From: Streptomyces sp. TS71-3
Lineage (GTDB): Bacteria; Actinomycetota; Actinomycetes; Streptomycetales; Streptomycetaceae
Direction of reading: 5' to 3'
DNA: 64,000 bases
Assembly (NCBI RefSeq): GCF_018327685.1
Contig: NZ_BNEL01000002.1
Location: 1 to 64,000 of the forward strand
In this document: piece by piece, positions 634 to 39,471 of the stretch
Layout of the letters: every line of letters starts with the position of its first letter
How positions within the stretch are numbered: the first letter of the stretch is position 1
Program-made: the position numbers and the translations under genes
The notes under the pieces: model-generated
Told to the model about the DNA's origin: nothing
Database searches by the model: none
What the model saw: only the letters and a program-made list of their open reading frames with translations

Positions 634-663
634 TCATTAGGTTTTTGCTCTATTCAGCCCGGT

Positions 664-7897: not shown

Positions 7898-8372
7898 CCA
7901 GCAACAACGACGGGAAAGCCCCTGCGTGTACTGCGCCAGAACATGCTCAGGACTTGTGGATCAGGCCCCGGGGGGCCGCGGAGGACGTACCTTCCCGAAG
8001 GTTCCTGTGACGGTCATCGAGTAGGCCGCGCTCACAGCTCGGGCCGGGAAGGCACGCCCGTGCTCAGCGTCGTCACCGTCGACGGTTCCATCGAGTCCGG
8101 CTCCCTGACCGACGAGATCGTCCAGGGTGGCCTCAACTGGTCCACAACTCTTGACAATTCCTCGCGAGCCGTAGCCATGACTGTGAAGGGGCTTTGTCCG
8201 GGCGGAATAGGGCCCTGTAAGCCGACCAGGCGCTTCGCTCAAAAACGTGGCTGCCCGTCGGGCCACTGTCCGGCCGGGAGCCTAGACACCCCGGGCGTAC
8301 GGGTCGCGCTGAACCGCCTGCGCGCGGGGAAGACTGCGGGCATTGCCGGTGGATGGGGAGGGGGTGGTCGCC
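7898..8372. other. Intergenic region after pPIWI-RE
   Basis: No convincing gene in 475 bp. Short open frames on both strands lack family-like sequence. A TTGACA hexamer at 8151 could be a -35 element, but the best -10 candidates downstream are poor. It separates the pPIWI-RE cassette from the regulator/peptidase pair. Confidence 0.4.
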
Positions 8373-21155: not shown

Positions 21156-21932
21156 TCACCGTGGCGGGAGTGAGGCGAGGTGGGACCGTACCCGTCGGCT
21201 GAGCAGTGTTGCGCAGCGGGTGTCGCGCACGAGTGCGGCCAGGTTGTGCCACACGGTCTGGCGGATGTCCCTGGGTGTTGTTCGGTGGTGGCGTGCGAGG
21301 GTCTGTTCAACGGCGGTGACGTTGCCGGGCAGTGGCTGGGCGGAGCTGCGGTCGCCGAAGGGGTGGTCGGTCTCGGTCAGTACACGGTCGAGAGGAATGG
21401 TCTGCAGCAGAGCGGTCTTGCGTGCGGCGGAGGCGTTGACGGAGAAGTAGCAGCCCAGGCGGACGGCGCGGGCGGTCTGCTCCGGGTCTCCGAGCCACCA
21501 GTGGAGAACCATGCCGGGGGCCGGGGACCGTTCCAGTTCGTCCAGCACCTGCTCGCAGGCGACGTAGCTGTGAATGCTGGCGATGCGCGGGGTTCGCGCC
21601 AGGACGTCGAGGACGTTGCGGAGGGTGGTCTGTTGGTTCTCGAGCGGGACGCGACTCCTGCCGTCGAGTCCGATCTCGCTGACCAGCGGGGTGTGGTCGA
21701 TCAGTTGAGTGAAGGTGTTGGGGTCGAAGCCGGTGTGGCTGCGGGCGAGTCCGGGGTGGGCGCCGACTCCCCAGATGATCCGGTCATCGTGTCGCTGGAC
21801 GGCTCGGGCGGCCTCGGGCAGGGACCGGGTGGCGGCGAAGATGACGGCGCCCAGGCCAGCGAGGTCGTCGACCGGGACGCTGGTGTCGATGTGTGCGTGC
21901 AGGTCCAGCGGTGGCAGTGCGCTCGTCCTCAT
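21156..21932 (-). CDS. qatD: QatD: TatD-family metal-dependent DNase
   Basis: Last gene of the QatABCD antiphage operon. TatD metal ligands are visible: LDLHAHIDTS (HxH), SEIGLDG (Glu), SIHSYVACEQV (His) and TETDHPFGDR (catalytic/metal Asp). At about 258 residues it is normal length for TatD. The ATG at 21932 overlaps the stop of qatC (ATGA), favouring it over an upstream GTG. In the characterised system all four genes are needed for protection; QatD presumably cuts DNA or a modified intermediate. Confidence 0.88.
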   Translation of the reverse strand: MRTSALPPLDLHAHIDTSVPVDDLAGLGAVIFAATRSLPEAARAVQRHDDRIIWGVGAHPGLARSHTGFDPNTFTQLIDHTPLVSEIGLDGRSRVPLENQQTTLRNVLDVLARTPRIASIHSYVACEQVLDELERSPAPGMVLHWWLGDPEQTARAVRLGCYFSVNASAARKTALLQTIPLDRVLTETDHPFGDRSSAQPLPGNVTAVEQTLARHHRTTPRDIRQTVWHNLAALVRDTRCATLLSRRVRSHLASLPPR

Positions 21933-23221
21933 GATGGGTACAGCAGCTCCAGTTCCGCGACGCCCCGCCGGCACAGCTCGTAGGCCTGGCGGGTGGGGTA
22001 GTCGGAGGGCAGGTTCAGGGTGGTGATGTCAGCTGGGCGCAGGCCGCGGGCGAGGAAGGTGCGCAGTGAGGCTTCGACCGACTTGTCGGCCAGGTAGGCG
22101 CTGAGGTGTGCGTCATGGCGAGTGTGGAGGTAATCGGTCGTGTCCTCGAGCTGGGCGGCGTGGAAGGAGGCGCGGCGCAGCAGGCAGCCGAAGCACACGC
22201 CGCAGTGCGTGCGCACGGGGATGCGGTGGGTGCGGTGTCCAGTGTGGGCGCAGGAGTGGGTGCTGCTGAGCAGCCGGGCGGCCGGGCCGGTGCCGACGAG
22301 TCCGGCGGCCAGGGTGAACATCTCGCCCTTGGTGCGGGCGGCAAAGGGGTTGTGGATGACGGCGTGGGCTCCAGCGTCGTGGGCAATGGCGGCCAGGGTC
22401 TGCAGGAAGAGGGGGTGGGTGGTGCGGGTGGACACGGCGCCGCGCTGGTCAGGGGTGAGCGGCACGTTGAGAGAGGCGAAACCGTTCTCCGGGATCCACA
22501 GCGGCACCTTCTCCACCGCGGCGGTGGCCAGGCCCAGGGCGAGGAAGAGCAGGGAGCGGGTGCGGGTGGAGTACTCGTTGCGCAGTTTCACCCCGGTGGA
22601 CTGATGGCTTTTGCGGGAGAACCGCAGCGGCTGGTGGAACTGCGGGGGGCCGTCGATGAGGTGGGCTATGTCGTCGGCGACGGCGCGTTGGATGGGGGCG
22701 AGGGTGGTGGCGCCGACATGGGAGAGCAGCAGGTGCTGCTCTGGCCCGAGGTCGTGGCGGGAGTAGAGGGCGCCGACCGCCGAGTCGGCGCCGCCGCTGA
22801 GGAGGACGACGCGCCGTATTCCAGGGTGCGGGGTGTCGTGGATGGTTTCTTGCGGGGTGGCGGTGTGGTGGAAGCGGATCGACCAGCGGTCTCCGGAGAG
22901 GAAGCCCAGGAGGGGTTCGAGGCGTTTACGCACTGCGTCCCAGCGGGCCGGGGCGTAGACGGGTACGTCCAGTTCGAAGGTGCGTTGGGTCCAGTTGGAG
23001 CGGTTGGCGCGGCGGCGGGTGGTGCGGTCGGCGGCATAGACCAGCGCGGCGAGGCGGACCAGTTCAATGTTGGGTTCGGGGACGGGGCCTAGTGCTCCCA
23101 GGCATGGTCCGAGGGTGGAGACGAAGGAACCGCCCGGGCCGGGTGGCCACCAGAAGGTGGTAGTGCTGTCGGGCTCGGGCCGGGAGGTGTCGGCGTCCAG
23201 GCGCAGGGTGTAGGCAGGCAT
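21929..23221 (-). CDS. qatC: QatC: QueC-like enzyme
   Basis: A 430-residue protein with a PP-loop ATP-pyrophosphatase signature, VLLSGGADSAVGAL, at about residues 139-152 and a C-terminal Cys cluster (CGVCFGCLLRR) like the zinc site of QueC 7-cyano-7-deazaguanine synthases. The longer N-terminal region is typical of QatC rather than housekeeping QueC, and no other queuosine gene is nearby. It may modify a protein or nucleobase within the Qat system. Stop overlaps the qatD start; its ATG is one base from the end of qatB. Confidence 0.9.
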   Translation of the reverse strand: MPAYTLRLDADTSRPEPDSTTTFWWPPGPGGSFVSTLGPCLGALGPVPEPNIELVRLAALVYAADRTTRRRANRSNWTQRTFELDVPVYAPARWDAVRKRLEPLLGFLSGDRWSIRFHHTATPQETIHDTPHPGIRRVVLLSGGADSAVGALYSRHDLGPEQHLLLSHVGATTLAPIQRAVADDIAHLIDGPPQFHQPLRFSRKSHQSTGVKLRNEYSTRTRSLLFLALGLATAAVEKVPLWIPENGFASLNVPLTPDQRGAVSTRTTHPLFLQTLAAIAHDAGAHAVIHNPFAARTKGEMFTLAAGLVGTGPAARLLSSTHSCAHTGHRTHRIPVRTHCGVCFGCLLRRASFHAAQLEDTTDYLHTRHDAHLSAYLADKSVEASLRTFLARGLRPADITTLNLPSDYPTRQAYELCRRGVAELELLYPS

Positions 23222-23997
23222 CAGGGCTCCATCCAGATGGACCGCATCGCCTCGATGCCTTCTTCGACGGCTCGGGTGATCTCGGTGGTGCTGGGGCCGG
23301 TGATCGTGAGGGGGGTTCGCTCGACCAGGGCGCGTGCGGTTTCGCGGATTTGGCGTTCACCATCGGCGGTGGCCCAGGTGGGGCGGGAGCCGTCGTTCAT
23401 CTTCGAGGCGGCCTCGCTGAGGATCGCCTCGGAGATGGTCAGGGCCAGGGTTTCCCGGACGACTTCCTCGGGAGTGGGGGGTGCGCTGTCAGTGCCTGCC
23501 TCCAGGACCCATTGGGCCACTTCGCTGGCGACGAAGCGGCGCTCCTCGTCCTCGATGGTGCCGTCGGCGAGTGGCCCGCAAGCGGCCTCCACGATCCGAC
23601 GGGTCCAGTCGATCGGGTCGTCGGCTACGGCCTGCAGTTCCGCGTAGTCGAGGCCGAGTTCCTGCAGGGCCTGCTCGTTGCCGGTGCGGTAGGCGTAGGC
23701 CGCGGCCGCTGCGCGGCCTGCCGTACGGGAGGACTGCACGACTGTGCGCTGTGCCCCTCCCCCGGCTCGGCCCCCTCCGGATTCGGTGGCGCCTCCTGCT
23801 CCGCCGCCGGGGCCGTCGGCGTGGCCGCCGGAGGTCCGGAACAGGCCGAGGGCTGGGGCGAGTTGGTCCGGACTGAGCTGAGGGGCGGGTGTGCCGGGGT
23901 CGGAGCCTGTCAGGGCGTCGAGCCACTGGGTGATGTTGTGCTGCAGTTGTTTGCTGGCAGGTGTGCCATTTCCGGTGTAGGAGCCCTTGGTGCCCAT
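23221..23997 (-). CDS. qatB: QatB
   Basis: A 258-residue protein beginning MGTKGSYTGNGTPASKQLQ, with a Gly/Ser-rich start characteristic of QatB, a Gly-rich linker (SGGHADGPGGGAGGATESGG) and a helical C-terminal half. QatB has no assigned enzymatic activity but is an essential, conserved part of QatABCD. It is sandwiched between qatA and qatC with one-base stop/start overlaps on both sides, so all four genes form one coupled operon. Assigned from position and N-terminal style. Confidence 0.8.
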   Translation of the reverse strand: MGTKGSYTGNGTPASKQLQHNITQWLDALTGSDPGTPAPQLSPDQLAPALGLFRTSGGHADGPGGGAGGATESGGGRAGGGAQRTVVQSSRTAGRAAAAAYAYRTGNEQALQELGLDYAELQAVADDPIDWTRRIVEAACGPLADGTIEDEERRFVASEVAQWVLEAGTDSAPPTPEEVVRETLALTISEAILSEAASKMNDGSRPTWATADGERQIRETARALVERTPLTITGPSTTEITRAVEEGIEAMRSIWMEP

Positions 23998-25910
23998 CAG
24001 AGGCGGCTTCCTGCGCCCAGGGCGTGCTCCAGGGCACGCTTGGTCCGGGCCGGGTCGGCCGGGGCATGGGTCTTCCAGTGCTCCAGCACGCTGCGGAAGG
24101 CGGGGTCGGCAGCCGGGAGGGTCAGGATGGTGGCCGGCTCCAGTTCGCCAGCCGGGACGGACTGCAGGAGCCGGGTGGCCCGTTCAGTGGTGGCCGGGTA
24201 GGCGGTGACGATACGGACCATGCCGCGCACGGCCGCGCTCTGTTCGGCCGGGCGGTCCCGGCCTGCCCGGCCGAGGTACTCGACCAGGCTCAGGGCGTCG
24301 TCCTCGCCGAGTGCTTCGATGTCGGCGTCGGTCACCCGGTGCTGGTCGAAGCGCGCGGTGGACAGCAGGTTGGCCGCGATGTCCCGCAGCCGACCCGGCA
24401 GTCCGGCGTCGAGGAGCTGCTCGCCGGAGAACGCGGCCGCCAAGTAGAGGTAGGGGGCCAGGTCCACGGGGCCGAGACTCGGGGAAAGTTTGGCCCATCG
24501 GATCAGTTCGTCCTCGAAGGTGACCGGCTCGGTCTCGTCCGGCGCCGGGTTCTGCTCTCCTGTCGAGGGGGCGTCGTCGTCGGGCGAGGGGCCGACGTCC
24601 TGGGCTGGCTGGGGTTCGGGGGCGGGACGGCCGGCGGCCGCTTCCAGTTTGGCCATCCGGGAGCGCAGTTCGCCGCGGGCCAGCCATCCCAGGACGGTGG
24701 TGAAGGCGTCGGGCAGGAGCTTCTCCAGCACCATGAGCTTGGCCACAATGTCCGCCTCGAGGAGGATGCCGCGGTGGTCGGCGACGGACTGGCGCACCCG
24801 CAGGTCGTTGAGAAAGCGCTTGATGCGGCGGGGGCTGCCTTGGAGCTTCTCGTAGAGGATGGGCGTCATCCGTGAGGCAAAGGCCAGTTCGGCGGAGATG
24901 TCGTTGCCGTTCACGGTCGTGGCCAGGTCGTCCAGCAGTCCCTTCTCCCGGCGCAGGCGTACGCAGGCCGCGATGTAGGGGGTGAGCTCCTCGTCGGGCA
25001 GGCGCTGGAGAAGTTGCAGCAGGACGAGGAAGGCTTCGGTGTCGAAGCGGCTCAGGGTGGGCAGCGGCACCGTGGTCTGCACAATCTTGTGCAGGTAGAG
25101 GCTGGCAGGTTCCTCGAAGTACCGCTCGTCTGCTCCCTGCTGTGTGCTGCCGGGGGCGGCAAAGCGGGCACGCAGGGCGTCGGCCACCCGGTGCTCGTCC
25201 GCGGCAACGACGAACGCCATCTTGGGCACCGCCAGGAACAGTCGGATGGTCTCGAGTGTGTCCACGACCGTTTCGGGCAGGCAGCGGTCGAGGTCGTCGA
25301 CGAGGACGACGACGCGCTTGAGGTGGCTGAGCTCGGCGGACTCCATCAGCGTGCAGAACTCGCTGCGGAATTCCTCCAGTCCGCGGGACGGAGGGTCTGC
25401 GGCGTCGGCGTCCTGGCTGCTGGGTTCGATGTTGATCAAGCTGGTGAGGTCGTCGACGGAGGGCAGCTGCAGGGTCAGCGACGTCTTGGCCGCCACCTGC
25501 AGGGCCTTGGCCCAGTCGACCCGCCGGCGCAGCGTAGTCAGCACCGCCCGGGCACGGCTGCGGGCCTGTCCCGGCTGTTCTTTCTGGGCGAGTTCGGCGG
25601 CGACGGCGCTGAGCACCTCGCCGATCAGGGTTTCCTTGGCGCTGACACCGGGGTCGTAGCGCCACGGATCCGTGCTGATCACGAGAACGGTGGCGTCGGT
25701 CCTGGGCTGCGGGGCGAGCTCGTCCTCGATCAGTCGGAGCACCGTGGTCTTGCCGCTCCCCCAGGCACCCGAGACCCCGACGGTCACCGGGTCGAGGGCG
25801 TCGTCGAGTACGGCCTGGACCACGGTCTTGGCCACCGCGTCGAACGACAGAAGATCCAGGTGTGTCGGCTCGTCCGACCACAGCTGTGCAGACATGTTGC
25901 TCTTGCCCAT
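23997..25910 (-). CDS. qatA: QatA: KAP-family P-loop ATPase
   Basis: A KAP-type NTPase of about 637 residues. Walker A (GVSGAWGSGKTT) is near residues 43-55; Walker B (VVVLVDDLDRCLPE) and a downstream sensor region (FVVAADEHRVADAL) follow, the standard KAP order. The helical insert and C-terminal region extend to the qatB junction. ATG 25910 (MGKSNM) or ATG 25895 (MSAQLWSDEPTH) is the start; sequence further upstream is not family-like. First gene of the operon; the gap to 26060 is AT-richer and probably holds the promoter. The QatABCD order matches the published system. Confidence 0.88.
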   Translation of the reverse strand: MGKSNMSAQLWSDEPTHLDLLSFDAVAKTVVQAVLDDALDPVTVGVSGAWGSGKTTVLRLIEDELAPQPRTDATVLVISTDPWRYDPGVSAKETLIGEVLSAVAAELAQKEQPGQARSRARAVLTTLRRRVDWAKALQVAAKTSLTLQLPSVDDLTSLINIEPSSQDADAADPPSRGLEEFRSEFCTLMESAELSHLKRVVVLVDDLDRCLPETVVDTLETIRLFLAVPKMAFVVAADEHRVADALRARFAAPGSTQQGADERYFEEPASLYLHKIVQTTVPLPTLSRFDTEAFLVLLQLLQRLPDEELTPYIAACVRLRREKGLLDDLATTVNGNDISAELAFASRMTPILYEKLQGSPRRIKRFLNDLRVRQSVADHRGILLEADIVAKLMVLEKLLPDAFTTVLGWLARGELRSRMAKLEAAAGRPAPEPQPAQDVGPSPDDDAPSTGEQNPAPDETEPVTFEDELIRWAKLSPSLGPVDLAPYLYLAAAFSGEQLLDAGLPGRLRDIAANLLSTARFDQHRVTDADIEALGEDDALSLVEYLGRAGRDRPAEQSAAVRGMVRIVTAYPATTERATRLLQSVPAGELEPATILTLPAADPAFRSVLEHWKTHAPADPARTKRALEHALGAGSRL

Positions 25911-26124
25911 CCCCCGGGCCTGCGACCTTTTCGTCTCAGGCGGTCCCCACACCAGCACTGTGCACCTGGGTTTTCCCGAATGTGCAGCGAACGCACACAA
26001 TAACCCTCGTTTCATCCTCAACAACAGCAAGAGAAATATTCGTTGCGGACACCACTGCATCACGATCTTCGGTCCGAGGGCGCGGTCATGGCCGACCGCC
26101 CTGCCGCTGCCCCGGTGCGAGCCC

Positions 26125-26701: not shown

Positions 26702-27385
26702 TCAGGTCGTCATGAGGCGGTGGTAGTCCTCGATGCGCTGGACCAGGTCGTCTTCGGAGATGCGGGTGAAGGCGCTCATCCGGGCGGGGGTGAGGCCGCT
26801 GATCAGGCCGGTCAGCGCGAGTTCGCACAGGGCCTGGTCGATGCGGGCCCGGGCAGCGCCGAGACTGACCAGGCCCAGCTCGGCGCCGTCCGCGGCCGGC
26901 ATCGCCCCCTCGATGGCCAGGCCGGCCAGGTCACGCACCGCATCGGTGATCAGCCCGGTGACGAATTCCGCCTTGTCCAAGCCGGCGGCACCCGCCCAGG
27001 TGCGCTCGTAAGAGGCCGGTCCGGCCGGGCCGGCGCCGGCGTGCTGCGCGCGGTACGCGGTGATGTACTGCCACACCCACCGGTAGGTCACCGGGCACCG
27101 GCTGGTGCGCAAGGTCAGCTCCCGGTACAGCTCGAACACCTCACGGCGCTGCTCGGGCGCCTTGGCCCGGTCTTCTTCCAGCAGCATCTCCAAGCACTGG
27201 CGGACCTCGGCGAGCTCTTCCTCGTCGGCCGGGATGTCGAGCGTGATGGGCGGCACGGTCGTAAGCGCTTCCATGACCATCCGGCGGCCCACGCCGTGGC
27301 GCTTGGCTAGGGCCTCGGGCAGCCTCTGGCCCGCCTGGTGGTCGCGGCGGATCGCGTCGAGGAGTTCGGGGTCCGGCTCGGGCAT
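26702..27385 (-). CDS. Last gene of transposase/ATPase operon: hypothetical HTH-like protein
   Basis: A 227-residue protein. The N-terminus (LLDAIRRDHQAGQRLPEALA KRHGVGRRMVMEAL) looks like a resolvase/IS-style HTH, and the rest is helical (LIEDYHRLMTT at the end). I do not recognise a family. It follows the 381-residue gene by 20 bp and is the last member of the seven-gene minus-strand operon. Its stop is almost on top of the ADH remnant, so any element end downstream has been lost or is extremely close. Could be a regulator or target-binding accessory. Confidence 0.6.
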   Translation of the reverse strand: MPEPDPELLDAIRRDHQAGQRLPEALAKRHGVGRRMVMEALTTVPPITLDIPADEEELAEVRQCLEMLLEEDRAKAPEQRREVFELYRELTLRTSRCPVTYRWVWQYITAYRAQHAGAGPAGPASYERTWAGAAGLDKAEFVTGLITDAVRDLAGLAIEGAMPAADGAELGLVSLGAARARIDQALCELALTGLISGLTPARMSAFTRISEDDLVQRIEDYHRLMTT

Positions 27386-27405
27386 CGTCTGCTCCCTGAT
27401 CTTTG

Positions 27406-28551
27406 TCAGCGGGTTGTCGGGGTGGAACGGCTCTTGCGTGTGCTGCCCGGCCGTGTGCGGGCTCCTCCGCGCCGCGGACCGGGCGCCTCCATCTCGTGCA
27501 GTTCGCAGGCGCGGGCGGCTTCGACCACGGCCTGCTGGTCCCAGCTACTCAGCCGCAGCGGCCCTTCGCCGCGGATCCGGTCCAGGTTCACGAAGCAGCG
27601 CGCGGTCTCGAGGAGTCCTGCGGCCCACGCCGGTATCTGCGCCGGGCGGCCAGAGGGTGTCCGGGAGTCGGACGGTGGCGCGGTGGGGCCGGGCAGCTGG
27701 GTCTGCGGGCGGCCGGTGAGGATGCGCAGGGCTAGTGCCGCGGCGTGGACGGGGTGGGCGATGCGCGCGTGCAGCCGGTGTGCGAGGAGCAGGGTGTGCT
27801 CGTCCGGCTCGGGCGTGAAGCGGCCGGGTGCGGGCAGCGGGAGCACGGTGCGGTCTAGGCGCTTCGAGGCCGCCTCGATATCGGCGCGGGACGTCTTGCG
27901 CCGCAGGGGCAGCAGGAAGCACGGCTCACCCGGGTGGGGCGGGAACTGCGCGGTGGCCTGCCACCACGCGAAGTGGCCGGCCGCCTGCGGGTCGTACGGC
28001 CCGGCCACCGCCAGGGCACGGCGGGCTGCGGCCAGGGTGTGCACCTGCTCGTGTGCCAGCGCCGGCAGGGCGGCGGCCAGGGCGGCCGGAACGGGGCCGT
28101 GGCACAGCAGGGTCAGGCGCATGCCGGTCAACTCCCGCAGTGCAAGGAGGGTTTCGAAGTGCCGGGAGCTGATGCGGTGGGCGCGGGTGACCACGACGTG
28201 GCCGATGCGCAGCGTAGATATCCAGGCGGCTACCGTGCGCCAGGCGATCTCGGCCTGTGCCGCCCAGCCGACGGCCTCTGGGTTCCCGTCCACCGGGAGG
28301 TGTTTGCCCACAGAGCGCAGCAGGTCGTGGGCGAGCGAGGCGGGAGTGCCGGCCACCGGGGTGGGGTGGACTGTGATCCGGCCGTGGGTGGGGGCGTGGG
28401 CGGCCAGGGCCGCGGCCATGAAGGCGTAGTCGTCGCCGCGATCGTGCACCACGGTGAGCGGGGGCAGGCCGGGGCGGGTGCGGCCCGGTGCCCATACCGG
28501 CCGCCACGGGCCGCTGTCCCGCTCCCCCTCTGCCGCCTCGCGCGGCGTCAT
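27406..28551 (-). CDS. TniB/TnsC-like paralogue without ATPase motifs (short form)
   Basis: A 381-residue protein. Its first ~170 residues align by eye with the neighbouring AAA ATPases: a strand plus helix at the Walker A position (LTVVHDRGDDYAFMAAALAA), GRITVHPTP, DLLRSVGK, then HVVVTRAHRI at the Walker B position and LRELTGMRLTLLCHG. No GKT/S is present and the Walker B acids are replaced by T-R-A-H. The remainder is a helical extension ending in a basic Arg/Ser/Thr tail. It overlaps the upstream HTH gene (ATGA). Interpreted as a non-catalytic partner in a transposase-ATPase complex; this is inference. Confidence 0.6.
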   Translation of the reverse strand: MTPREAAEGERDSGPWRPVWAPGRTRPGLPPLTVVHDRGDDYAFMAAALAAHAPTHGRITVHPTPVAGTPASLAHDLLRSVGKHLPVDGNPEAVGWAAQAEIAWRTVAAWISTLRIGHVVVTRAHRISSRHFETLLALRELTGMRLTLLCHGPVPAALAAALPALAHEQVHTLAAARRALAVAGPYDPQAAGHFAWWQATAQFPPHPGEPCFLLPLRRKTSRADIEAASKRLDRTVLPLPAPGRFTPEPDEHTLLLAHRLHARIAHPVHAAALALRILTGRPQTQLPGPTAPPSDSRTPSGRPAQIPAWAAGLLETARCFVNLDRIRGEGPLRLSSWDQQAVVEAARACELHEMEAPGPRRGGARTRPGSTRKSRSTPTTR

Positions 28552-29354
28552 CGTGATACCCCGCCCCCGGACAGTGACGTACCGGCTGCCGGAGCGGCCG
28601 CAGCACCGGCGTCGACGTCCGGGCCGGTGGCGGACAGCGGGCGTGCGACCAGGCCGAGGGCGAACAGCACGTCCGGGTGCGGGGCCGGCCCGCACCCGTC
28701 GGGGACGAGCAGCCCGCGTGCGGCCAGGCGCGGAATCTGCCCGGCAGGCACAGCGTGAGGAAGACCGTGGACGGCTGTGTGCAGCAGGCATGTCAGGGCG
28801 GCGGCCTCGCCCGGGCTGAGGCTGGCGACGGTGTGACCGCCCTCGTGCAGGTTCTGCTCCTGTCCGACAGTGAGCAGTCCGGGCTGTACGGCCAGGTGGA
28901 GGGTGGTGTCGGTGTGGACGAGCCGGTGCGGGCCCGCCTGCTCCTCGAGCTGGGCGGCCAGGGTCTTCGCGGCCCGCCGCAGTTGGTGCGCCGGCCACTG
29001 CAGGGCCGAGGCCACATCGTCGGGGTGCAACGGGCCGGTCTCCAGCAGGGCCGCGTGCAGCACGGTGGCATGCTCGGCTGCTCCCGGGCCAGATCGTGGG
29101 CGGCGTCGCGGGCGCTGGTGCCCCGCATCGCGCAGCAGCGACTCGGGGGACGTGTCAAGGGCGCGGGACAGGGCGAACAGGGCCGCGGCGGACAGGGTGT
29201 GCGGACTCAGCCGCCTGTCCCAGTCGGCGACGGGGATGCTGCACAGTGCAGCCAGGTCCTCGTCGGTGAGATGGCGCTCCCGGGCCCGCTTGCGGACGAG
29301 GGTCAGGTCGAAGCCGGTCATGTCCCGCTCGCCGGAGGCCAGTTGGCTGCTCAT
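28548..29354 (-). CDS. HTH regulator-like protein inside transposase operon
   Basis: A 268-residue protein with an XRE-like N-terminus (DLTLVRKRARERHLTDEDLA, DWDRRLSPHTLSAAALFALS RALDTSPESLL), then a winged-helix-like region (LHPDDVASALQWPAHQLRRA AKTLAAQLE) and a second HTH-like part (LSPGEAAALTCLLHTAV). The C-terminus is Gly/Ala-rich. It overlaps both neighbours by four bases. Probably DNA binding, either an autoregulator of the element or a target-site selector of the kind TniQ/TnsD provide, but the zinc fingers of TniQ are not present. Confidence 0.6.
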   Translation of the reverse strand: MSSQLASGERDMTGFDLTLVRKRARERHLTDEDLAALCSIPVADWDRRLSPHTLSAAALFALSRALDTSPESLLRDAGHQRPRRRPRSGPGAAEHATVLHAALLETGPLHPDDVASALQWPAHQLRRAAKTLAAQLEEQAGPHRLVHTDTTLHLAVQPGLLTVGQEQNLHEGGHTVASLSPGEAAALTCLLHTAVHGLPHAVPAGQIPRLAARGLLVPDGCGPAPHPDVLFALGLVARPLSATGPDVDAGAAAAPAAGTSLSGGGVSR

Positions 29355-30820
29355 GGGCGCACCGGCCCAAGGCGCGGCAGGACGTGAGGAGCGAGTGGAG
29401 CGGGGGTATGCAGGTGCCAGCCACGGGCGGCGGTGTGCCAGTCGTCGTCGGTGTGCGGGTGGTCAAGGGCGGGAACGGGCAGGCCCGCGTCGGCGATCAG
29501 GGCCTGAAGGCGGGGCATGGTGCCGAAGCAGTTCGCGAACAGGCCGTGAGCGGGCGCGGTGCGCGGAGTGCGGCGGCGGAATTCGAGCGCCGCGGCGAGC
29601 AGCGGGCGGGCGCGGGGCGGAATCGCGTACAGGTGCCGTGGGGCGGGCGGGGCGCCGATGTTGATCCGTCCGTCACGGTCAATGGCGATGTGCGTGGCCT
29701 GATCGCCGACGCTGGTGATCTGCGTCATCGCCAGCAGCGGCGTGGCGGTGCCGGTGCACAGCAGAGCCGCGATCGCCGCGGCGCGCAGCGGGCTGGGCAG
29801 GCGCGTGGTGATCGTGTGCACGGTGCGCGGGGTCAGGGGCACGGTGGTGATCCCGGGCCCCGCGCGGCGATTGAGGTCGTCGGGCACGTTCAGCAGCACC
29901 CCGCAGGTCAGCAGGCCGGCCTGGGCACCGCGGACCCGGGCCACGGTGTGCTGCGGGCTGGGGCTTAAGACCGTCAGCCGGGACAGGAATAGCCGCAGCG
30001 CCTCCGTCTCGCGCAGACCGAATGCGGTCGGCTTGGTGAACTCGGCCGGGCGGTCGGCCTCTTCGGCGCCGCCGCTGCCGGTAGGCGGCTTCAACGGCAG
30101 GCTGCGGGCCCACCATGTGCGGGCGGCGGCGTAGCCGGCACGGTACTGGGCATCCGTGCGCGCGAAGTCGGCCTCGTTCTGTCGGCGCCAGCACTGGGCT
30201 CGGAAGGCGGCAACTCCAGCGCGCGGTACGGCAGGCAGCGGCTGCGCATGATCGAGTGGAGGCGGGCCGGTCCGGTGGTCGGCGACGGCCGGCCCGATCG
30301 CGTCAAGGGCTGCCGCCGTACCCGTCACACACGCCACGTCCGCCAGGTGGGCGGCGGCCAGTTGCTCCGTCAGGCGCCGGACGTCGGCCGGCTGAGGGGT
30401 ATGGGCGAGCAGGGTGAGGCGGATGCCGGTCTCGACACGCCAGGCGGCCAGGCGGCGCAACCGCTCGACGGTGAGACGGTGGGCGCGCAGCACAATCACC
30501 TCCCGTACGCCGGTGGCCAGGCTCCAGCAGGTCACCGCCCGCCAGGCCGGGTCGGTGGACATCCGCTCCGCTCCCTCGCGGGAGAACCCGAGGCGGCCCA
30601 TCGCGCGCAGCACGTCCAGCGCGAGGTAGGCGGGGCTGGTGGTGTGAGGGGTGGGGTCGGCAGTGATCCGGCCGCGAGACGCATCCGCCCACCGGCAGGC
30701 GGCCCGGTGCACCGCACGGTCGTCGTCGGCGTCCAGGAGCAATCGCACCGGCCCCGCCGCCGATGCTGTGGCGGCGCCCGGCGTGGGAAGAACAGCGGGC
30801 AGGGACATCGTCATGGTCAC
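29351..30820 (-). CDS. TniB/TnsC-like paralogue without ATPase motifs (long form)
   Basis: A 489-residue protein. Residues ~20-180 parallel the operon's true AAA ATPases: LLLDADDDRAVHRAACRWAD in place of Walker A, GRITADPTPHTTSPAYLALD, VIVLRAHRLTVERLRRLAAW in place of Walker B, and TGIRLTLLAHTPQPADVRRL. It is clearly related to the 381-residue protein. The C-terminal ~230 residues (TRLPSPLRAAAIAALLCTGT, LLAMTQITSVGDQATHIAID, HLYAIPPRARPLLAAALEF) form an extra domain I cannot name; weak likeness to a tyrosine-recombinase end was judged insufficient. GTG 30820 overlaps the upstream stop (GTGA). Confidence 0.6.
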   Translation of the reverse strand: MTMTMSLPAVLPTPGAATASAAGPVRLLLDADDDRAVHRAACRWADASRGRITADPTPHTTSPAYLALDVLRAMGRLGFSREGAERMSTDPAWRAVTCWSLATGVREVIVLRAHRLTVERLRRLAAWRVETGIRLTLLAHTPQPADVRRLTEQLAAAHLADVACVTGTAAALDAIGPAVADHRTGPPPLDHAQPLPAVPRAGVAAFRAQCWRRQNEADFARTDAQYRAGYAAARTWWARSLPLKPPTGSGGAEEADRPAEFTKPTAFGLRETEALRLFLSRLTVLSPSPQHTVARVRGAQAGLLTCGVLLNVPDDLNRRAGPGITTVPLTPRTVHTITTRLPSPLRAAAIAALLCTGTATPLLAMTQITSVGDQATHIAIDRDGRINIGAPPAPRHLYAIPPRARPLLAAALEFRRRTPRTAPAHGLFANCFGTMPRLQALIADAGLPVPALDHPHTDDDWHTAARGWHLHTPAPLAPHVLPRLGPVRP

Positions 30821-31710
30821 CGTCCGCCGTCGACCCGGTCGGCCACCGTCTGCAGCAGCCGCCCATCGGGCACGGCGGCCCGGGCGCGGGCCATCAGTCG
30901 CAGGGTGTGATGGGTGATCACGACCCAGCGGCGCAGCGCGCCGCCGGCCAGCCGGGCGTCCAGCTCCATCAGGTCGCCGGGATCGACGCCCTGCCACACT
31001 GGGTGCAGCGCGGGCACCGCTACCGAGACCTGATCACGGGTCAACGGCTGAAGATGCAGCCAGCCGGCGGTGCGGGTGGCGAGCATCCGCTGGGCGCGCA
31101 GGCGCCGCTCCCCGCGGCGGGCGGCGATGAGGACCACGCACAGCCCGCCCGCGACAGCGTCGTACAGGAATCGCAGGTACTCCATGCAGGACGCCGACAG
31201 CCGGTGGGCGTCCTCGACCACGACGATCCGCGGCCGATCGGCCAGCGCGTGGCGGATCAGTGTGTCCGCGGCCCCCGGATCAGCCGGCGCCCCACCGGGC
31301 AGCCGAAGTGCCCGGTGCAGAGAGTTACGCAGGTCCGCCGGCGCCGGCTGCGCCCGCAGCTCGAGGGGCAGCAGGTCGCCAAGACGGCGGCCGGCCACAT
31401 GGACGGCGAAGGTCTTACCGATGCCGACATCACCCAGCACGCACACGAACCGGCGCTCGCAGGCGGCGTCGGCGAGCGCGGCGCCCACCGCGAGCATGCC
31501 GGGGGTCAGCAGCGTGCGCATCTGCCCAACCCGCAGGAAATGCAGCCCGGATGAGTCAGCGTCGTCCAGGACGGCGAACGGCCCGGCCGCGGCCGCCTCG
31601 CCCCACACAGCCCGCACGGAAGACTCGGTGGACTCGGTGGACTCGGTGGACTCGGTGGACTCGGTGGACTCGGTGGACTCGGTGGACTCGGTGGACTCGG
31701 TGGTCAGCAT
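30817..31710 (-). CDS. Second TniB/TnsC-like AAA ATPase with Thr-Glu-Ser repeat N-terminus
   Basis: A ~297-residue ATPase with Walker A GDVGIGKT and Walker B RIVVVEDAHR, paralogous to the ATPase just upstream: both share LHPVWxGVD (VPALHPVWQGVD against VPDSHPVWRGVD) and a helical lid. The N-terminus is unusual: nine perfect copies of a 9-bp unit encode (Thr-Glu-Ser) repeats from residue 4 onward. ATG 31710 overlaps the preceding stop in ATGCTGA. TniB/TnsC ATPases recruit the transposase to target DNA; two non-identical copies in one operon suggest a mixed ring or division of labour. Confidence 0.8.
   Translation of the reverse strand: MLTTESTESTESTESTESTESTESTESTESSVRAVWGEAAAAGPFAVLDDADSSGLHFLRVGQMRTLLTPGMLAVGAALADAACERRFVCVLGDVGIGKTFAVHVAGRRLGDLLPLELRAQPAPADLRNSLHRALRLPGGAPADPGAADTLIRHALADRPRIVVVEDAHRLSASCMEYLRFLYDAVAGGLCVVLIAARRGERRLRAQRMLATRTAGWLHLQPLTRDQVSVAVPALHPVWQGVDPGDLMELDARLAGGALRRWVVITHHTLRLMARARAAVPDGRLLQTVADRVDGGR
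31622..31702. repeat. Nine perfect 9-bp tandem repeats (GACTCGGTG)
   Basis: The unit repeats nine times without a mismatch inside the 5' end of the second ATPase gene. Because the unit is a multiple of three, copy-number change alters the length of the Thr-Glu-Ser tract without a frameshift. Perfect identity suggests recent expansion. Confidence 0.95.
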
Positions 31711-32528
31711 CGGCCCAACGCCCACTCCACTACCGTCTCGTCAACCGTATCGGCTCCCAGGTGCTCCATGCCCTTCAGGACATGCTTGGTGACCTTGACC
31801 CACTCGCGGAACGAGCCGAGTGCGTACTGGGTGTCGATCCGCTTGAGCAGCGCCTCGTCCACACCGCGCCACACCGGATGAGAGTCGGGCACCGTCTTGA
31901 GGATCTCGTCCTCGGTCATCGCGAGGATCTCCAGGCGGATGTAGATCCGGGAAGCGAGCGCCGGGTCGCTCTGCAGCGTCTCGTAGGCCTCACGGCCGCC
32001 GACGAACACGATCGCGGGCTGTGGGTCGCAGTTGTCCCACAATTTGCGCAGGAACTCGAAATTCTCCCTGCGGTACTGCTGCGCCTCATCGCACACGATC
32101 ACATACGGGCGCCGCGGCAGACTCTCGCGCAGCAGCTTGTCGAACGCGGTCGGCGTGCCCGGCATCTTGCAGTTGAGCCGCATCTGGTGAAACAGCTCCT
32201 CGCGCAGGTCCTTCGGTCCCGGGCGGGAGCGGGCGAAGTCGAGAGGGAGGATCAGATCGGGATTCATCTCCTGGATCGTGGCCCGCGTGGAAAAGCTCTT
32301 GCCGAGCCCCGGGTCGCCGTAGATCACGGACATGGCCCTGGACTCGATGGTGTCGATGACGGTGTCCTTGATCTGCAGCAGAGTGTCCGTGGCAACCAGC
32401 GTGGAGTCCTTCAGACCAAGGAAATGCTGCGGGCGCAGGTCGGGGCGGCGCCTGGATGCCTCGCTCGCAGGGGCAGCGGCCGGCTGGCGGCGCTGGCCAA
32501 GGTGCTTGCGTTGAGGAGCAGTTGTCAC
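31704..32528 (-). CDS. TniB/TnsC-like AAA+ ATPase
   Basis: A 274-residue ATPase (VTTAPQRKHLG start) with Walker A YGDPGLGKSF, Walker B YVIVCDEAQQYRRENFEFLR, sensor FVGGREAYE and a C-terminal lid (SHPVWRGVDEALLKRI). This is the architecture of TniB/TnsC/IstB-like target-selection ATPases of Tn5053/Tn7-type transposons. GTG 32528 overlaps the transposase stop by four bases (GTGA), so ATPase and transposase are made together. The likely role is ATP-dependent target capture and activation of the DDE transposase. Confidence 0.85.
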   Translation of the reverse strand: MTTAPQRKHLGQRRQPAAAPASEASRRRPDLRPQHFLGLKDSTLVATDTLLQIKDTVIDTIESRAMSVIYGDPGLGKSFSTRATIQEMNPDLILPLDFARSRPGPKDLREELFHQMRLNCKMPGTPTAFDKLLRESLPRRPYVIVCDEAQQYRRENFEFLRKLWDNCDPQPAIVFVGGREAYETLQSDPALASRIYIRLEILAMTEDEILKTVPDSHPVWRGVDEALLKRIDTQYALGSFREWVKVTKHVLKGMEHLGADTVDETVVEWALGRC

Positions 32529-34159
32529 GAGACCTCGTCCTTGGAGTCCTGGGATGCAGTGTCGGTGGAGTCCTGGCCGGGGCGTTTCCACCCGGCCGGG
32601 ACGGGAGTCAGGGGCCGGTACGGCTGGATACGGCGGCGGGGTGCGACGGGCAAAGCGGCGCCTTCGAGTTCGGCGCGAGCCTCCTGCGCGGTCATCCGCA
32701 TCGCGCGGACGGGCAGTTCCGGCTCGGTGGATGGCAGGTGCCGCTCCCGCCGGCGCTCGGCGGCGCCGTTCAGGGCCCGACGCAAGGCCTTGCTGTGCTC
32801 GTCGCGTTCGAGGAGCACCTTGGCGCGCAACTCCTCGCTGGCCTCGTTACTCAGGAAGGCCCGGCCCAGGTAACGGTTGCCGCGGAAGGTGTACAGGTCA
32901 ATCTCGTGGGTGTGGTGCGGCATCCACCGCACCCGCACCTCGAGCCCGATCCGGCCCACCCCGTTTTCCGCCATATAGCAGCGACCCGCGAACTCGACCC
33001 CGTGACTGGTGATCTTGTGGACCTTGTTGTCGCTCTCCAGCATGAAGGCGCGCAACTCGGACGCGCTCGGCTCAGGCCTGATCTCCGTCGGATCCGCCTG
33101 CCACGCTTCAAGCGGCGTCATCCCGGTGCGCTGGATGACGTGCTCGGTGTTGTGCTGGCGGACCCACTGGCCCAGCAGGCGAACGAACGCCTCGAAGGTC
33201 AGCAGTGGATCCTGGTCTCCGACGCGGCGGCGGTGATCGAGCCTCGGCGCCTTCGTGTAACGGGGCAGGTCGGCGAAGAACCTTGTCATGCTCGTCAGGT
33301 TCAGGCGTTCCACGCCGCCCTTGTGCCGGGCGCTGCGCACCCGGTGCACGGGCACGCCGAGCAGCCCGAAGGCGCGCAGGACGGTCTTGGAGAGGAAGTC
33401 GGCGCCGCCGTCGACACGGACCAAGTGCGGCAGCCCGCCAGCCGGGCCGTAGGGGGCCTCGCGCATGACGGAGGCTCGTACGGCCGCCAGGACGGAGCCA
33501 CGGTGCGCGGAGCCGGCGGTGACCGCCCAGCCCATGACATAGCCGGTCCCGCGGTCCTCGAACCACGTCACCCACACCCTCGACGGCTTCTTGTCGGGCA
33601 TCATCACCACCGTCTCGGCCTGCTTGTGGTCCCCCTCCCACACCGCGTTCCGCGCCACCGACGGCCGCTGAAAACACGGATCGAACCCACGGGCCGCCAA
33701 AATCCCCTCGCGCAGACCCGCCATGAAGCCCGGATCGAGATCTCGGGCGATCGCATCATGCAGTGTCGTCAACCCGACCGGCTTGACGCCCGCCTCCTTC
33801 GCGACGCGCACCAAGTGCTCGTGAGCCCGCTTCACGTTGCCCTGATAATCGGCGAGGACCTCGATCACCTCATCAGTGATCTCGAACCGCTGCCGCTCCG
33901 GCTTCTCCGGACTGCCGGTCTCCTCCGCGCGGGCCAGCCAGCTCCACACCGTCCGCTTGTGTACACCCACCGCGTCAGCGACCAGCCGTACATGCGCTGT
34001 CGTCAACTCCCCTGCGGCCCGCAGCCGTAGCAGCTGAGCCACTGCCGCAGGCCGCAACTCATCCCGATGCCGCCCCAAACCGTCACCCACGGCCCCAGAA
34101 GCGTCGCCGTTCGCCGTCACCGGAGCTGGCATGCGCGCCACGAGCGAACCGGAAACCAA
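32525..34159 (-). CDS. Mu/TnsB/TniA-type DDE transposase
   Basis: A 544-residue transposase. N-terminal HTH (LVADAVGVHKRTVWSWLARA) and a second helical DNA-binding region precede the RNase H-like core with D177 (NAVWEGDHKQAE), D250 (LVRVDGGADFLSK) and E284 (KGGVERLN), a 33-residue D-E spacing like the Mu/Tn7 group. A Mu-transposase C-terminal beta barrel (GRCYMAENGVGRIGLEVRV) and a basic tail probably contacting the ATPase follow. TTG 34159 or ATG 34132 may be the start. First gene of the operon; upstream DNA holds TGACA-centred repeats that may be transposase sites. Confidence 0.88.
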   Translation of the reverse strand: MVSGSLVARMPAPVTANGDASGAVGDGLGRHRDELRPAAVAQLLRLRAAGELTTAHVRLVADAVGVHKRTVWSWLARAEETGSPEKPERQRFEITDEVIEVLADYQGNVKRAHEHLVRVAKEAGVKPVGLTTLHDAIARDLDPGFMAGLREGILAARGFDPCFQRPSVARNAVWEGDHKQAETVVMMPDKKPSRVWVTWFEDRGTGYVMGWAVTAGSAHRGSVLAAVRASVMREAPYGPAGGLPHLVRVDGGADFLSKTVLRAFGLLGVPVHRVRSARHKGGVERLNLTSMTRFFADLPRYTKAPRLDHRRRVGDQDPLLTFEAFVRLLGQWVRQHNTEHVIQRTGMTPLEAWQADPTEIRPEPSASELRAFMLESDNKVHKITSHGVEFAGRCYMAENGVGRIGLEVRVRWMPHHTHEIDLYTFRGNRYLGRAFLSNEASEELRAKVLLERDEHSKALRRALNGAAERRRERHLPSTEPELPVRAMRMTAQEARAELEGAALPVAPRRRIQPYRPLTPVPAGWKRPGQDSTDTASQDSKDEVS

Positions 34160-34698
34160 GCAGTGATCACGGCGCCAGCCCCTTTTATGACGTCAACTAC
34201 CACCCCACACAGGGCAGTTCACGCCGCACCCGTGACAGGCGCGACGGATTAGACGCTAAAGCCGACACCCTGACACGCGCCCCTTCGATCACTTGGACGA
34301 GTGACAGCAGCCCCGTTTCACCTCCGCCCCACACCCTCATGCGCTACAGAGCACACCGCGAAGGAGGTTCGACGAACACGACACCGATCGATCCGGACTC
34401 ACACCACCGCCGAGTACGGAATACCACCACCAAGATCAACTATCTGAAATACCCGACGACCAGCACAAATACAAGCCCGCATCAATGATGCGAAAACCCG
34501 AACACCTCAGTGGCGCCTTCACCGAACCTCACAGCGTGCGAAGTGAGCGGGGGATATTCGTCGTCGAGGCGGGGAGGAGTCGATCCGGTTTCGATGCGCA
34601 TGGGACGTGCTTGCCGCCAGATCTGGGAGACAGGCCCTGTCGTGCGTCGGGCTGCGTGGACTGCCGGAGCGTCTCGCCTACGAGGGCGGAGTGCGCGT
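34160..34698. promoter_or_regulatory. Upstream region of transposase operon with TGACA-type repeats
   Basis: Three related sites: GTGACAGGCGCG (34232), CTGACACGCGCC (34270) and GTGACAGCAGCC (34301), spaced 38 and 31 bp apart, in the place where a TnsB/TniA-type transposon end with several transposase-binding sites would lie. No clear terminal TGT/ACA boundary or target duplication could be fixed. The rest (34320-34698) shows no gene. Confidence 0.4.
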
Positions 34699-37255: not shown

Positions 37256-37840
37256 TCAGGCTCCGATGCCGAGTGCGCCGACGTAGGCGTAGGCGCCGTA
37301 GCCGGAGTCGAGGTCGGAGATGAGGTCGTCCCAGATGTCGTCCAGGGTGTCCGCGTCGCCCTCTGCCCAGGCGTCAACAGCTTCGTCCCACACGTAGCGG
37401 GCCTGGATGGAGCGCTCGGACAGGTTCGGACGCCGGCGGGCTTGGGGCACGTTCGTCTGGTCGACCGGGTAGACCTCGATACGCCGGCCCCGCCCCTCGT
37501 TGTCCAGGAGCCGCTTCAGTGCTCCGGAGCGGACCACGTTCTCGCGTCGACGCTCCTGGTACGCCGCATCGACGGCCTCCAGCTTGCCTGCGGACGGACG
37601 GCGGCCGGCCTCCCAGGAGCGCAGGAGGCGCGCGCTGACGCCGTGCTGGCGCAGGGCCTCACGGCCGGCGGGGCTGGCCAGGTAGCGCAGCCGGGCGTTG
37701 AGGCCTCGGGTGGTGGTGACCGGGGAGGCGATGCCGCCTTCACGGGCGATGCGGTCGATCTCGCGGGCGAGGGCCTGGCCACCGCTCATGCCGCGGGCGC
37801 CGTACTTTTGCCACTCGCCCCACCCGTATTCGCCGCCCAC
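37256..37840 (-). CDS. Candidate divergent telomere terminal protein (tpg position)
   Basis: A 194-residue protein directly following the tap-like gene, with stop and GTG start sharing one base (TAGTG). The N-terminal half has GLNARLRYLASPAGREAL then an HTH (HGVSARLLRSWEAGRRPSAG), arrangement comparable to Tpg, which also has ARLRFL then GVSQRSVERY. The second half is basic then acidic (IWDDLISDLDSG) and ends in aromatics (YGAYAYVGALGIGA). It lacks the well-known Tpg C-terminal wording, so it is either a divergent Tpg or another Tap partner. Known: Tap recruits Tpg, which is covalently bound to 5' telomere ends. An internal ATG at 37789 is an alternative start. Confidence 0.55.
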   Translation of the reverse strand: MGGEYGWGEWQKYGARGMSGGQALAREIDRIAREGGIASPVTTTRGLNARLRYLASPAGREALRQHGVSARLLRSWEAGRRPSAGKLEAVDAAYQERRRENVVRSGALKRLLDNEGRGRRIEVYPVDQTNVPQARRRPNLSERSIQARYVWDEAVDAWAEGDADTLDDIWDDLISDLDSGYGAYAYVGALGIGA

Positions 37841-39297
37841 TACTGGTCACCCCCGAGGATGTAGGTGTTCTTCGGCTTCACCTGCGCCAGATCGCGGCCC
37901 GCTTCGAATACTTGGCGCCAGTCCCCCGCGACGTGCAATTCGTCGGTGCCGGACATCTCCACCACCGTCAAACCGGCCTCATGCGCTTTGTGCGCCTTGC
38001 GCCAGAGATTCGCGAATGCCTGCGAGCGGATAATGTGCATCCAATCCGGGCGCCTAATCGCGCGGTTGGCGCTGGACTCCCCGATGGTGGACACGAACTT
38101 AGAATACATGAACTTCACGTATTCCGTGGTCACTTCATCGTCATTCGCAATGGCCTCTTTACGGACCTCTACCAGGGCACGGCGCATTTTCTCCAATAGC
38201 CCTTCGCTGCTGCCCGACGTCCACGACTCGTGAATGATCGGCGCATCGCAGAGTGGGGTGTCGAGTCGGGCGCAGTGCAGCAGGAGCCGCAGCGTGGGTT
38301 CGGTCACCCACAGGTCACCCGGTTCTTTCCTGGCGCCGAGCGGGGAGGGGAGGTCTTCCGCGGTCCATGCGGGCGGGGTGATGCGGTGAATTCCGGACCG
38401 CTTCGGGTCGTGCGCTGCCGCGTCACCGGTCGAGTGGACCAGCTTGCCGATCGGCAGATGGGTCTTGAGCGCGGCGAGGTAGGCCGCGTTGGCGTCGAGC
38501 GCGGTGACCTCCAAGTGCACCAGGCCCTCCCGGGCTGCGCGCGCCAGCTCGGCCGCGCGCCACTTCGGCCGGGCCTCCCATACCTGGTCCGCACCCTTTT
38601 GAGTGCGCTTTTGGAGGAGGTCGCTGGTCGGGGGGAACTGGCTGTGCTCGTATCGGCCGCCGACGCGGGAGGCCTCGAACAGGTCCATGACGTCGGGGAT
38701 CGCCCGCTTGATCAGGGCGGCCCGTGCGGCGTCGATGTCGCCCTGGTGCTCGCGCAGGGTACGAGTGACCGCGGCGCGTACCAGGTCGGCCAGGGGGCCG
38801 GCGGGGGTGGGGCGGCGCGGCACCCGGGCCTGCTGCTCCACGGCCTGCTGCTCCACGGCCTGCTGCTCCGTGGCCGGTGGCTCCGCAGCCGGTACCGCCG
38901 ATTCGACCTCCGCGGCCGACGCCGCAGGAGCGGCCGGCGCCAACACGGCCGACCGCACGGGCGCCGGGGTCGGCGGCGCGGCCGTGAGGTCGGCCTCCGG
39001 GACGTCGGCGGGGGCCGTGGGGAGCGGGATGGCGGCCTGGATGGTGCCGCGGGTGATGCGGTCCGCGGGGAGGCGGGAGGCCGCGTGCGTCGGGCCGGCG
39101 AGTAGATCGAGCGGGGTCATCCCCCAGTGCGCGGCGAGCCGGTCGACGTCGCCGAGCGTCCAGGCCGCCCTGCCGGCCTGCTTCTTGGACACCTGCGCCT
39201 GCGTCACATCGAGGGCGGCGCCGAGCTGCGCCTGGCGCTCGCCGGTGCGCTGCATCAGCGCGGCCACGGTGAGCCGCAACAGGTCCTCCGTGCTCAT
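37840..39297 (-). CDS. tap: Telomere-associated protein, Tap-like
   Basis: A 485-residue protein (ATG 39297 or 39300). HTH at the N-terminus (RTGERQAQLGAALDVTQAQV SKKQAGR), a Pro/Ala linker with EQQAV repeats, the block shared with the 10278 gene (GDIDAARAALIKRAIPDVM), and a C-terminal domain matching Tap in layout: ALDANAAYLAAL (268-), KFMYSKFVSTIG (395-), VVEMSGTDELHVAG (446-). These three resemble family-B polymerase motifs A, B and C in degenerate form. Shorter than chromosomal Tap (about 740 residues), as plasmid versions may be. It starts the operon with the tpg-position gene; Tap binds telomere 3' overhangs for end patching. Confidence 0.7.
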   Translation of the reverse strand: MSTEDLLRLTVAALMQRTGERQAQLGAALDVTQAQVSKKQAGRAAWTLGDVDRLAAHWGMTPLDLLAGPTHAASRLPADRITRGTIQAAIPLPTAPADVPEADLTAAPPTPAPVRSAVLAPAAPAASAAEVESAVPAAEPPATEQQAVEQQAVEQQARVPRRPTPAGPLADLVRAAVTRTLREHQGDIDAARAALIKRAIPDVMDLFEASRVGGRYEHSQFPPTSDLLQKRTQKGADQVWEARPKWRAAELARAAREGLVHLEVTALDANAAYLAALKTHLPIGKLVHSTGDAAAHDPKRSGIHRITPPAWTAEDLPSPLGARKEPGDLWVTEPTLRLLLHCARLDTPLCDAPIIHESWTSGSSEGLLEKMRRALVEVRKEAIANDDEVTTEYVKFMYSKFVSTIGESSANRAIRRPDWMHIIRSQAFANLWRKAHKAHEAGLTVVEMSGTDELHVAGDWRQVFEAGRDLAQVKPKNTYILGGDQ

Positions 39298-39471
39298 CAT
39301 GGCGACCACCCTACCAGGGATTATTCCAAATCGGCATTGTTGATTCCTGGTTGACATTCTTGCTGCCTGTGTCCCGAGGTCACGTACGGCCGTGTGACGG
39401 CCGTTGGCGATCTGTCCCGACCGGATCCCGCCGGAGCGTGGTGTTCGGGGCTCTCAGGGGCCGTTGACGGC

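Follow-up and report, generated by a model that had tools for sequence, protein, structure and literature searches.

A seven-gene Tn7-like operon with two ATP-less TnsC relatives probably mobilizes a one-ended telomeric transposon on linear replicons of actinomycetes

Results

Herein, we examined 64,000 nucleotides of Streptomyces sp. TS71-3 (contig NZ_BNEL01000002.1; the whole stretch is referred to below as the window) and, within it, an operon of seven minus-strand genes, g1 to g7, running from position 34159 down to 26702. Our comparisons make it highly probable that the seven genes power a telomeric transposon that has a single transposon end and resides on linear actinomycete replicons. 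We draw this from one sharp tip, the replicon terminus as the other boundary, and the loss of the old end in relatives; judged from the loci compared, the single end, the terminal second boundary, several insertion sites, and the loss of the old end are all features of the element. Telomeric transposons were reportedly named by Hsieh et al. (Science 2025) and are said to have one specific end, with the telomere as the other boundary, on linear Streptomyces chromosomes and plasmids.

The end of the element could be placed at position 34533, because copies lying in different sites share the same sharp tip, as a search proposed in an earlier note on this DNA had sought. Specifically, the tip, TGTGAGGTTCGG, was the same in all 6 of 6 loci whose flanks are unrelated and recurred with at most one mismatch in 22 of the 25 close named loci. 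The block behind it, probably the TnsB-binding end, was conserved even where it stood 0.7 to 1.4 kb further from tnsB. This end had one copy in its own genome; across the window, the tip pattern gave six matches at two or fewer mismatches, where 6.5 were expected by chance, and only positions 34522-34533 matched exactly. One tip was present inside each of the four terminal stretches that were read whole (G051, S. cadmiisoli, S. cellulosae, and pSSP121038), and the tip search of the window, the close loci, and the terminal stretches yielded no convincing second end, although a strongly diverged end would escape it. The Tn7 and Tn5053 trait of two inverted ends with a 5-bp target duplication was thus not recovered by the tip search, and a single end leaves the duplication unscorable. 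Further one-mismatch tips were found outside the element in S. cadmiisoli (two) and LX-29 (two candidates), and one, inverted, was found in the S. seoulensis copies. In S. seoulensis A01 (CP054936.1), the two 60% copies (L070 and L071) lie near the right end and at approximately 1.83 Mb, which is possibly an assembly matter.

In relatives, the other boundary of the element was the replicon terminus, with the tip on the chromosome side, the element running to the terminus, and the operon transcribed towards it. This orientation was seen in 15 of 15 copies, a count that leaves out draft contigs, the 60% S. seoulensis copies, a fragmentary Embleya copy, and the WAC00288 record, which is labelled circular and has no terminal inverted repeat (TIR); S. 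cadmiisoli shares that label but has an inverted repeat and was therefore included. Another S. cellulosae strain (NZ_CP109454.1) was left unplaced, as were other complete genomes for which only protein entries were listed. Among six replicons examined at both ends, the TIR stopped 0 to 5 bp from the tip in four, and in one chromosome, an 11,645-bp terminal repeat ended exactly at the tip. Judging from these borders, element copies at both ends of one replicon can form a TIR. The window contig had no TIR between its first and last 20 kb. Its first position falls within a gene, and the telomere of the window copy is therefore not visible. In each of two further genomes, TnsB copies (G067) or g4/g6-profile matches (G649) lay at near-identical distances from the apparent four ends of two contigs, as if one element had capped both a chromosome and a plasmid.

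The flanks outside the tip point to what the insertions removed. Six of 30 outer flanks (L036, L059, L060, L089, L090, and L095) reached a terminal-helicase gene no more than 160 bp from the tip, and all six matches ran in the sense direction, with the 5' part absent and only the 3' part kept. The first matched residues of the 909-residue G051 helicase were 566, 706, 364, 342, 81, and 737, respectively; with another helicase query, the L095 match began at flank base 3. Over the rest of the 269,804 bp of flank, three helicase queries matched in only four further places. Because the queries derive from the replicon ends under study, including one from L089, this locus was counted through its independent match to G051. 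Given that the long helicase open reading frame of G051 (433-3162, plus strand) reads from the telomere inwards and that the 5' part was always missing, the insertions removed the telomere side of the old helicase gene; read from these flanks, the old replicon end has been replaced in relatives. The flank set leaves out L032/L057, L034/L058, L051 (no flank), L053 (masked), L061, L068 (duplicates), and loci without a tip; it counts both of the identical L091 and L092 and uses the inner of the two candidate tips in LX-29.

We found no shared target sequence outside the tip when the first 1 kb of up to 30 flanks was compared, flanks with long N runs being left out. Setting aside two S. cellulosae flanks that are identical, four matches turned up, all short or partial: three paired flanks from the same replicon or genome, and the fourth, of 147 bp, paired WAC00288 with the window. 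No tRNA target was found in the window. A one-mismatch tip-like sequence at L089:20233-20244 and repeated helicase fragments 6.9 to 9.1 kb into the L060 flank look like layers of earlier end replacements.

The operon itself is a Tn7/Mu-type system, as the earlier note had it, and its gene order, single strand, and short overlaps (4 bp at g1/g2, g3/g4, g4/g5, and g5/g6, and 7 bp at g2/g3) are as described there; with the starts used, g6 and g7 are separated by a 20-bp gap. The transposase g1 matched Pfam Mu-transpos_C (E 1.7e-6), the phrog_310 transposase family (2.9e-46), and the TnsB structures 8rdu/7svw (1.6e-11, in an alignment spanning the DDE domain). Its predicted catalytic residues D177, D250, and E284 proved correct, with each being invariant in the 58 covering loci out of 60 with a TnsB match. 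The note's suggestion of a domesticated system is disfavored by this invariant triad, together with the identical tip in varied sites. Two TniB/TnsC-like ATPases were also borne out by Pfam and phrog_296: g2 matched AAA_22 (7.4e-16), TniB (7.5e-5), and phrog_296 and kept both Walker A and Walker B in 17 of 17 aligned members, and g3 matched AAA_22 (2.7e-12) and phrog_296 and keeps Walker A, with ED or DD instead of DE in Walker B in 6 of 12 aligned members. The g3 N terminus bears approximately 10 copies of the tripeptide TES (window positions 31620-31705), likely a length-variable tract.

As the note had also stated, none of the seven proteins, to which the Pfam and NCBIfam search was confined, matched TniQ. 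A TniQ-family gene is annotated at L096:24774-25442, immediately outside the left tip of pSSP121038. Of the two helix-turn-helix assignments, that of g5 stands on a weak match to a phage repressor family (8.8e-4), and that of g7 is unproven, since g7 had no significant match in Pfam, NCBIfam, or phrog searches.

The seven genes were co-inherited as a modular unit rather than scattered. Of the 20 close named loci that have both g1 and g2, g3 was present in 19, g4 in 17, g5 in 15, g6 in 14, and g7 in 10 (identity cut 50%, or 55% for g4; two of the 20 loci are the two ends of one genome), and because g3 to g7 recur in 10 to 19 of these loci, the grouping exceeds chance in the genomes compared. 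Across 295 genomes of the genus, a TnsB match was found in 74 and a g4/g6-profile match in 67, with both in 54 and neither in 208. Further, 65 of 107 TnsB clusters had a g4/g6-profile match within 10 kb, all 65 downstream and on the same strand, and 23 of 91 g4/g6-profile clusters had no TnsB nearby. These counts, which use all 110 TnsB entries and all 124 g4/g6-profile entries, are lower bounds, because only four to five candidates were scored per genome. Class-wide, the g4/g6 profile matched in 9 of 394 genomes, 6 of which belong to the same genus. In more distant operons, TnsB is retained together with one g4/g6 relative and either one or two TnsC; three of these operons (L047, L048, and L049) have a separate short gene resembling the TnsB N terminus and an extra ATPase directly upstream of tnsB.

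Two of the seven proteins, g4 and g6, are homologous to each other (hhalign, 99.87%) and matched no Pfam family. Among g4 members, 9 of 45 matched AAA_22, with a best E of 0.02. In predicted structures, the N-terminal domains of both have the TnsC/MuB fold, so the two degenerate paralogues proposed in the note are TnsC-fold relatives and do not belong to an unrelated fold. For g6, Foldseek gave no PDB match at E 0.001 or better, the best being MuB at 1.9e-3. Their paralogy with g2 and g3 rests on the predicted folds, because sequence-only hhalign was weak (best E 0.004, probability 8%). Walker motifs were absent from all 45 aligned g4 members and all 37 aligned g6 members, and the same homologues maintain long open frames and many invariant columns.

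The region of g4 behind the TnsC-like domain probably has a tyrosine-recombinase fold, truncated and dead, of the kind present in the selector TnsF. Neither this domain nor the element end and telomere boundary described above was identified in the note. Tested for such a domain, g4 gave a tyrosine-recombinase profile match that stops at the box II histidine; the conserved T-G is not followed by an Arg in at least 44 of 45 members, and the tail has no tyrosine column. For this comparison, 23 of 30 integrase frames were kept, by an H.LR-type motif. The profile search with A1 returned no relative with a named domain; this search and those with g4 and g6 scored the best 7,998 to 7,999 candidates, and families absent from the VIA-align listings were not treated as excluded. 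Five g4 homologues (P0021, P0026, P0032, P0036, and P0055) are annotated as carboxymuconolactone decarboxylase family, probably a misannotation. Another, P0086, with 37% identity, comes from Rhodococcus sp. WB9; linear replicons exist in that genus as well.

The element carries putative cargo (Table 1). Its QatABCD-type operon matched PADLOC models for QatA (2.9e-81), QatC (5.8e-71), and QatD (1.8e-38), and the gene at the QatB position had no PADLOC match. A Mutator-family transposase lies between the operon and the contig start, and an IS5-type transposase lies just outside the window tip. A Tap/Tpg-like pair lies inside the S. cellulosae and CB02923 elements, and a Tpg-like gene alone lies inside those of AC1-42W and pSSP121038; none was found inside those of G051 or S. 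cadmiisoli. In the window, only a Tap-like fragment is inside and the intact pair is outside, much as in G051, where the pair lies 5.6 to 7.2 kb outside the right tip. The Tap/Tpg label rests on a partial, sub-cut-off Tap family match of the S. cellulosae protein, and the window pair matched no NCBIfam model.

Table 1. Positions of the operon, the element end, and neighboring features in the window
Feature	Position	Strand	Basis
g1, TnsB/Mu-type DDE transposase	32525..34159	-	D177, D250, E284; family and structure matches
g2, TnsC-like AAA+ ATPase	31704..32528	-	Walker A GDPGLGKS, Walker B CDEAQ
g3, second TnsC-like ATPase	30817..31710	-	Walker A GDVGIGKT, Walker B VEDAH
g4, pseudo-TnsC with probable truncated dead tyrosine-recombinase-fold domain	29351..30820	-	Without Walker motifs
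g5, helix-turn-helix protein	28548..29354	-	Repressor-like N terminus, weak match
g6, pseudo-TnsC, shorter homologue of g4	27406..28551	-	Without Walker motifs
g7, small accessory protein, no fold assigned	26702..27385	-	In 10 of 20 close loci
Element tip TGTGAGGTTCGG	34522..34533 (outermost base 34533)	-	Comparison of loci; TIR borders of other replicons
Conserved subterminal block, ~200 bp, probable TnsB-binding end	34327..34533	-	Conservation among loci
QatABCD-type anti-phage operon, cargo	21156..26063	-	QatA 23997-26063, QatB position 23221-23997, QatC 21929-23221, QatD 21156-21974
pPIWI-RE (Ppr) defence genes, cargo	583..7897	+	PADLOC PprDinG 5.3e-97, PprPIWI 2e-52, pPIWI_RE_REase 1.1e-15
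Tap-like gene fragment, element side of tip	10374..11171	-	82% to residues 1-264 of S. cellulosae plasmid Tap-like protein
Terminal-helicase-like fragments, element side of tip	20155..20975	-	54-74% to helicase at S. cellulosae plasmid end
Tpg-like (37256-37840) and Tap-like (37840-39357) genes, just outside tip	37256..39357	-	42% and 59% to pair inside S. cellulosae element

Discussion

How such an element might move can be outlined from its components. We infer that TnsB would bind the ~200-bp end and cut the 3' strand at the tip, with Mu/Tn5053-like nicking being proposed because the operon has no TnsA. The ATPase g2, with its intact Walker motifs, and perhaps g3, would load on target DNA as TnsC rings, on which g4 and g6 would dock as non-hydrolysing TnsC-like subunits. 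The dead tyrosine-recombinase domain of g4 could then serve as a DNA-reading target selector that replaces TniQ and favors existing replicon ends, such that TnsB would join the single end near an existing telomere on this TnsC/pseudo-TnsC platform. The joined end would become a fork, and copying would run to the element's own telomere, which would form the new terminus.

One alternative concerns only the transposition step and leaves the identity of the element the same. Specifically, two telomeres might be bridged head to head in an inverted dimer that moves as a two-ended element, with the telomere re-formed later, a route that is said to be proposed in the abstract of Hsieh et al. 2025. It agrees with each copy having a single end and with TnsB synapsis requiring two, and we regard it as a genuine possibility, albeit not the favored one, given that the truncated helicase genes, with their distal part gone, show that ends were lost, and insertion of a circle would need an extra step. 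A second alternative takes g4 and g6 to be TnsC copies in decay, or regulators, with no part in target choice. The lack of Walker motifs in the 45 g4 and 37 g6 aligned members would suit decay, as would the absence of g6 from 6 of 20 close loci (one of the six at a contig edge); however, long frames and many invariant columns in these homologues are not kept under decay, and a g4/g6 relative also stands beside distant TnsB-TnsC operons, which makes this explanation unlikely.

Two further explanations were weighed. In a population study, Streptomyces TIR turnover is attributed to break-induced replication or recombination (PMC7205883), and another study allows telomere exchange by transposition as a possibility (PMC8743542). 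If the TIRs arose by break-induced replication or inter-arm recombination, the Tn7-like genes would be passengers. Such arm copying is the published account of variable Streptomyces TIRs (PMC7205883) and would suit two replicons in which the TIRs run past the tip or have no tip, but it leaves unexplained why the TIR stops at the tip, with different flanks beyond, in 4 of 6 replicons examined, and we consider it very improbable. Also very improbable is an ordinary two-ended Tn7-like transposon near chromosome ends whose second end has diverged beyond recognition: to our knowledge, all well-known Tn7, Tn5053, and Mu elements are two-ended, the second-end search covered close tip copies only, and the S. 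seoulensis copies have an inverted one-mismatch match, but G051, S. cadmiisoli, S. cellulosae, and pSSP121038 show no second tip (at one or fewer mismatches) on the way from the operon to the terminus, and TIR identity is unbroken from tip to terminus.

The one-ended telomeric element favored here has points in common with several known systems. It shares with telomeric transposons, as their traits are reportedly described, one specific end, a telomere boundary, and linear replicons, and it also resembles them in their TniQ-less members. According to a CRISPR review, TniQ-less I-E5 CRISPR-associated transposons (CASTs) occur in telomeric transposons (PMC12669027), and streptomycete type I-E loci with tnsB and tnsC are mentioned in another review (PMC12231136); unlike telomeric transposons with CAST, the plasmid annotations read here, whose gene tables are incomplete, had no CRISPR gene inside the element. 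The TnsB-type DDE transposase and TnsC-type AAA+ ATPases are shared with Tn7, Tn5053, and type V-K CAST (TnsB-TnsC-TniQ), whereas our operon has no TniQ/TnsD or TnsA match, four TnsC-fold proteins, and one end found. TnsF, described as an inactivated tyrosine recombinase acting as a Tn7-type selector in Tn6022-like transposons (PMC10293859), likewise places such a domain in a Tn7-like operon protein, but in g4, the domain lies behind a pseudo-TnsC domain, and the insertion sites, among which no search for comM was made, are varied and in many cases terminal. Phage Mu A/B shares the MuA-type transposase and MuB-type ATPase families (phrog_310 and phrog_296), in contrast to the replicon-end boundary and multiple ATPase-fold subunits seen here.

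The earlier note knew of no described example of this set, a claim that needs qualifying because telomeric transposons are already published; what stands is that we could not place this gene combination in print. Specifically, the literature searched, with most subscription papers outside it, gave no description of this operon family, and we claim no absence. The two points so left unplaced, namely, the joint presence of two TnsC, two pseudo-TnsC, and a dead recombinase domain, and a TIR border coinciding with the tip in this family, may either of them be in Hsieh et al. 2025. What looks unusual in this element is its two ATP-less helpers and the dead recombinase domain that comes with them.

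More tentatively, g4 and g6 might represent a target selector of a new class. In this view, both would be TnsC subunits of the ATP-less kind, and at a minimum g4 would have a dead Xer-type recombinase domain fused to it. They would enter or cap the ring of active TnsC and guide the one-ended transposase to DNA near existing telomeres, the terminal-helicase gene being one example; the element would thereby jump from one replicon end to another, replacing telomeres and generating TIRs. If they are selectors, pseudo-ATPase subunits would be added to what is known of TnsC, and a second dead tyrosine recombinase would have been recruited as a Tn7-type guide. Beyond target choice, the proposed element carries anti-phage systems beside its transposition genes and offers a concrete, base-precise origin for some TIRs and for telomere replacement in linear bacterial replicons.
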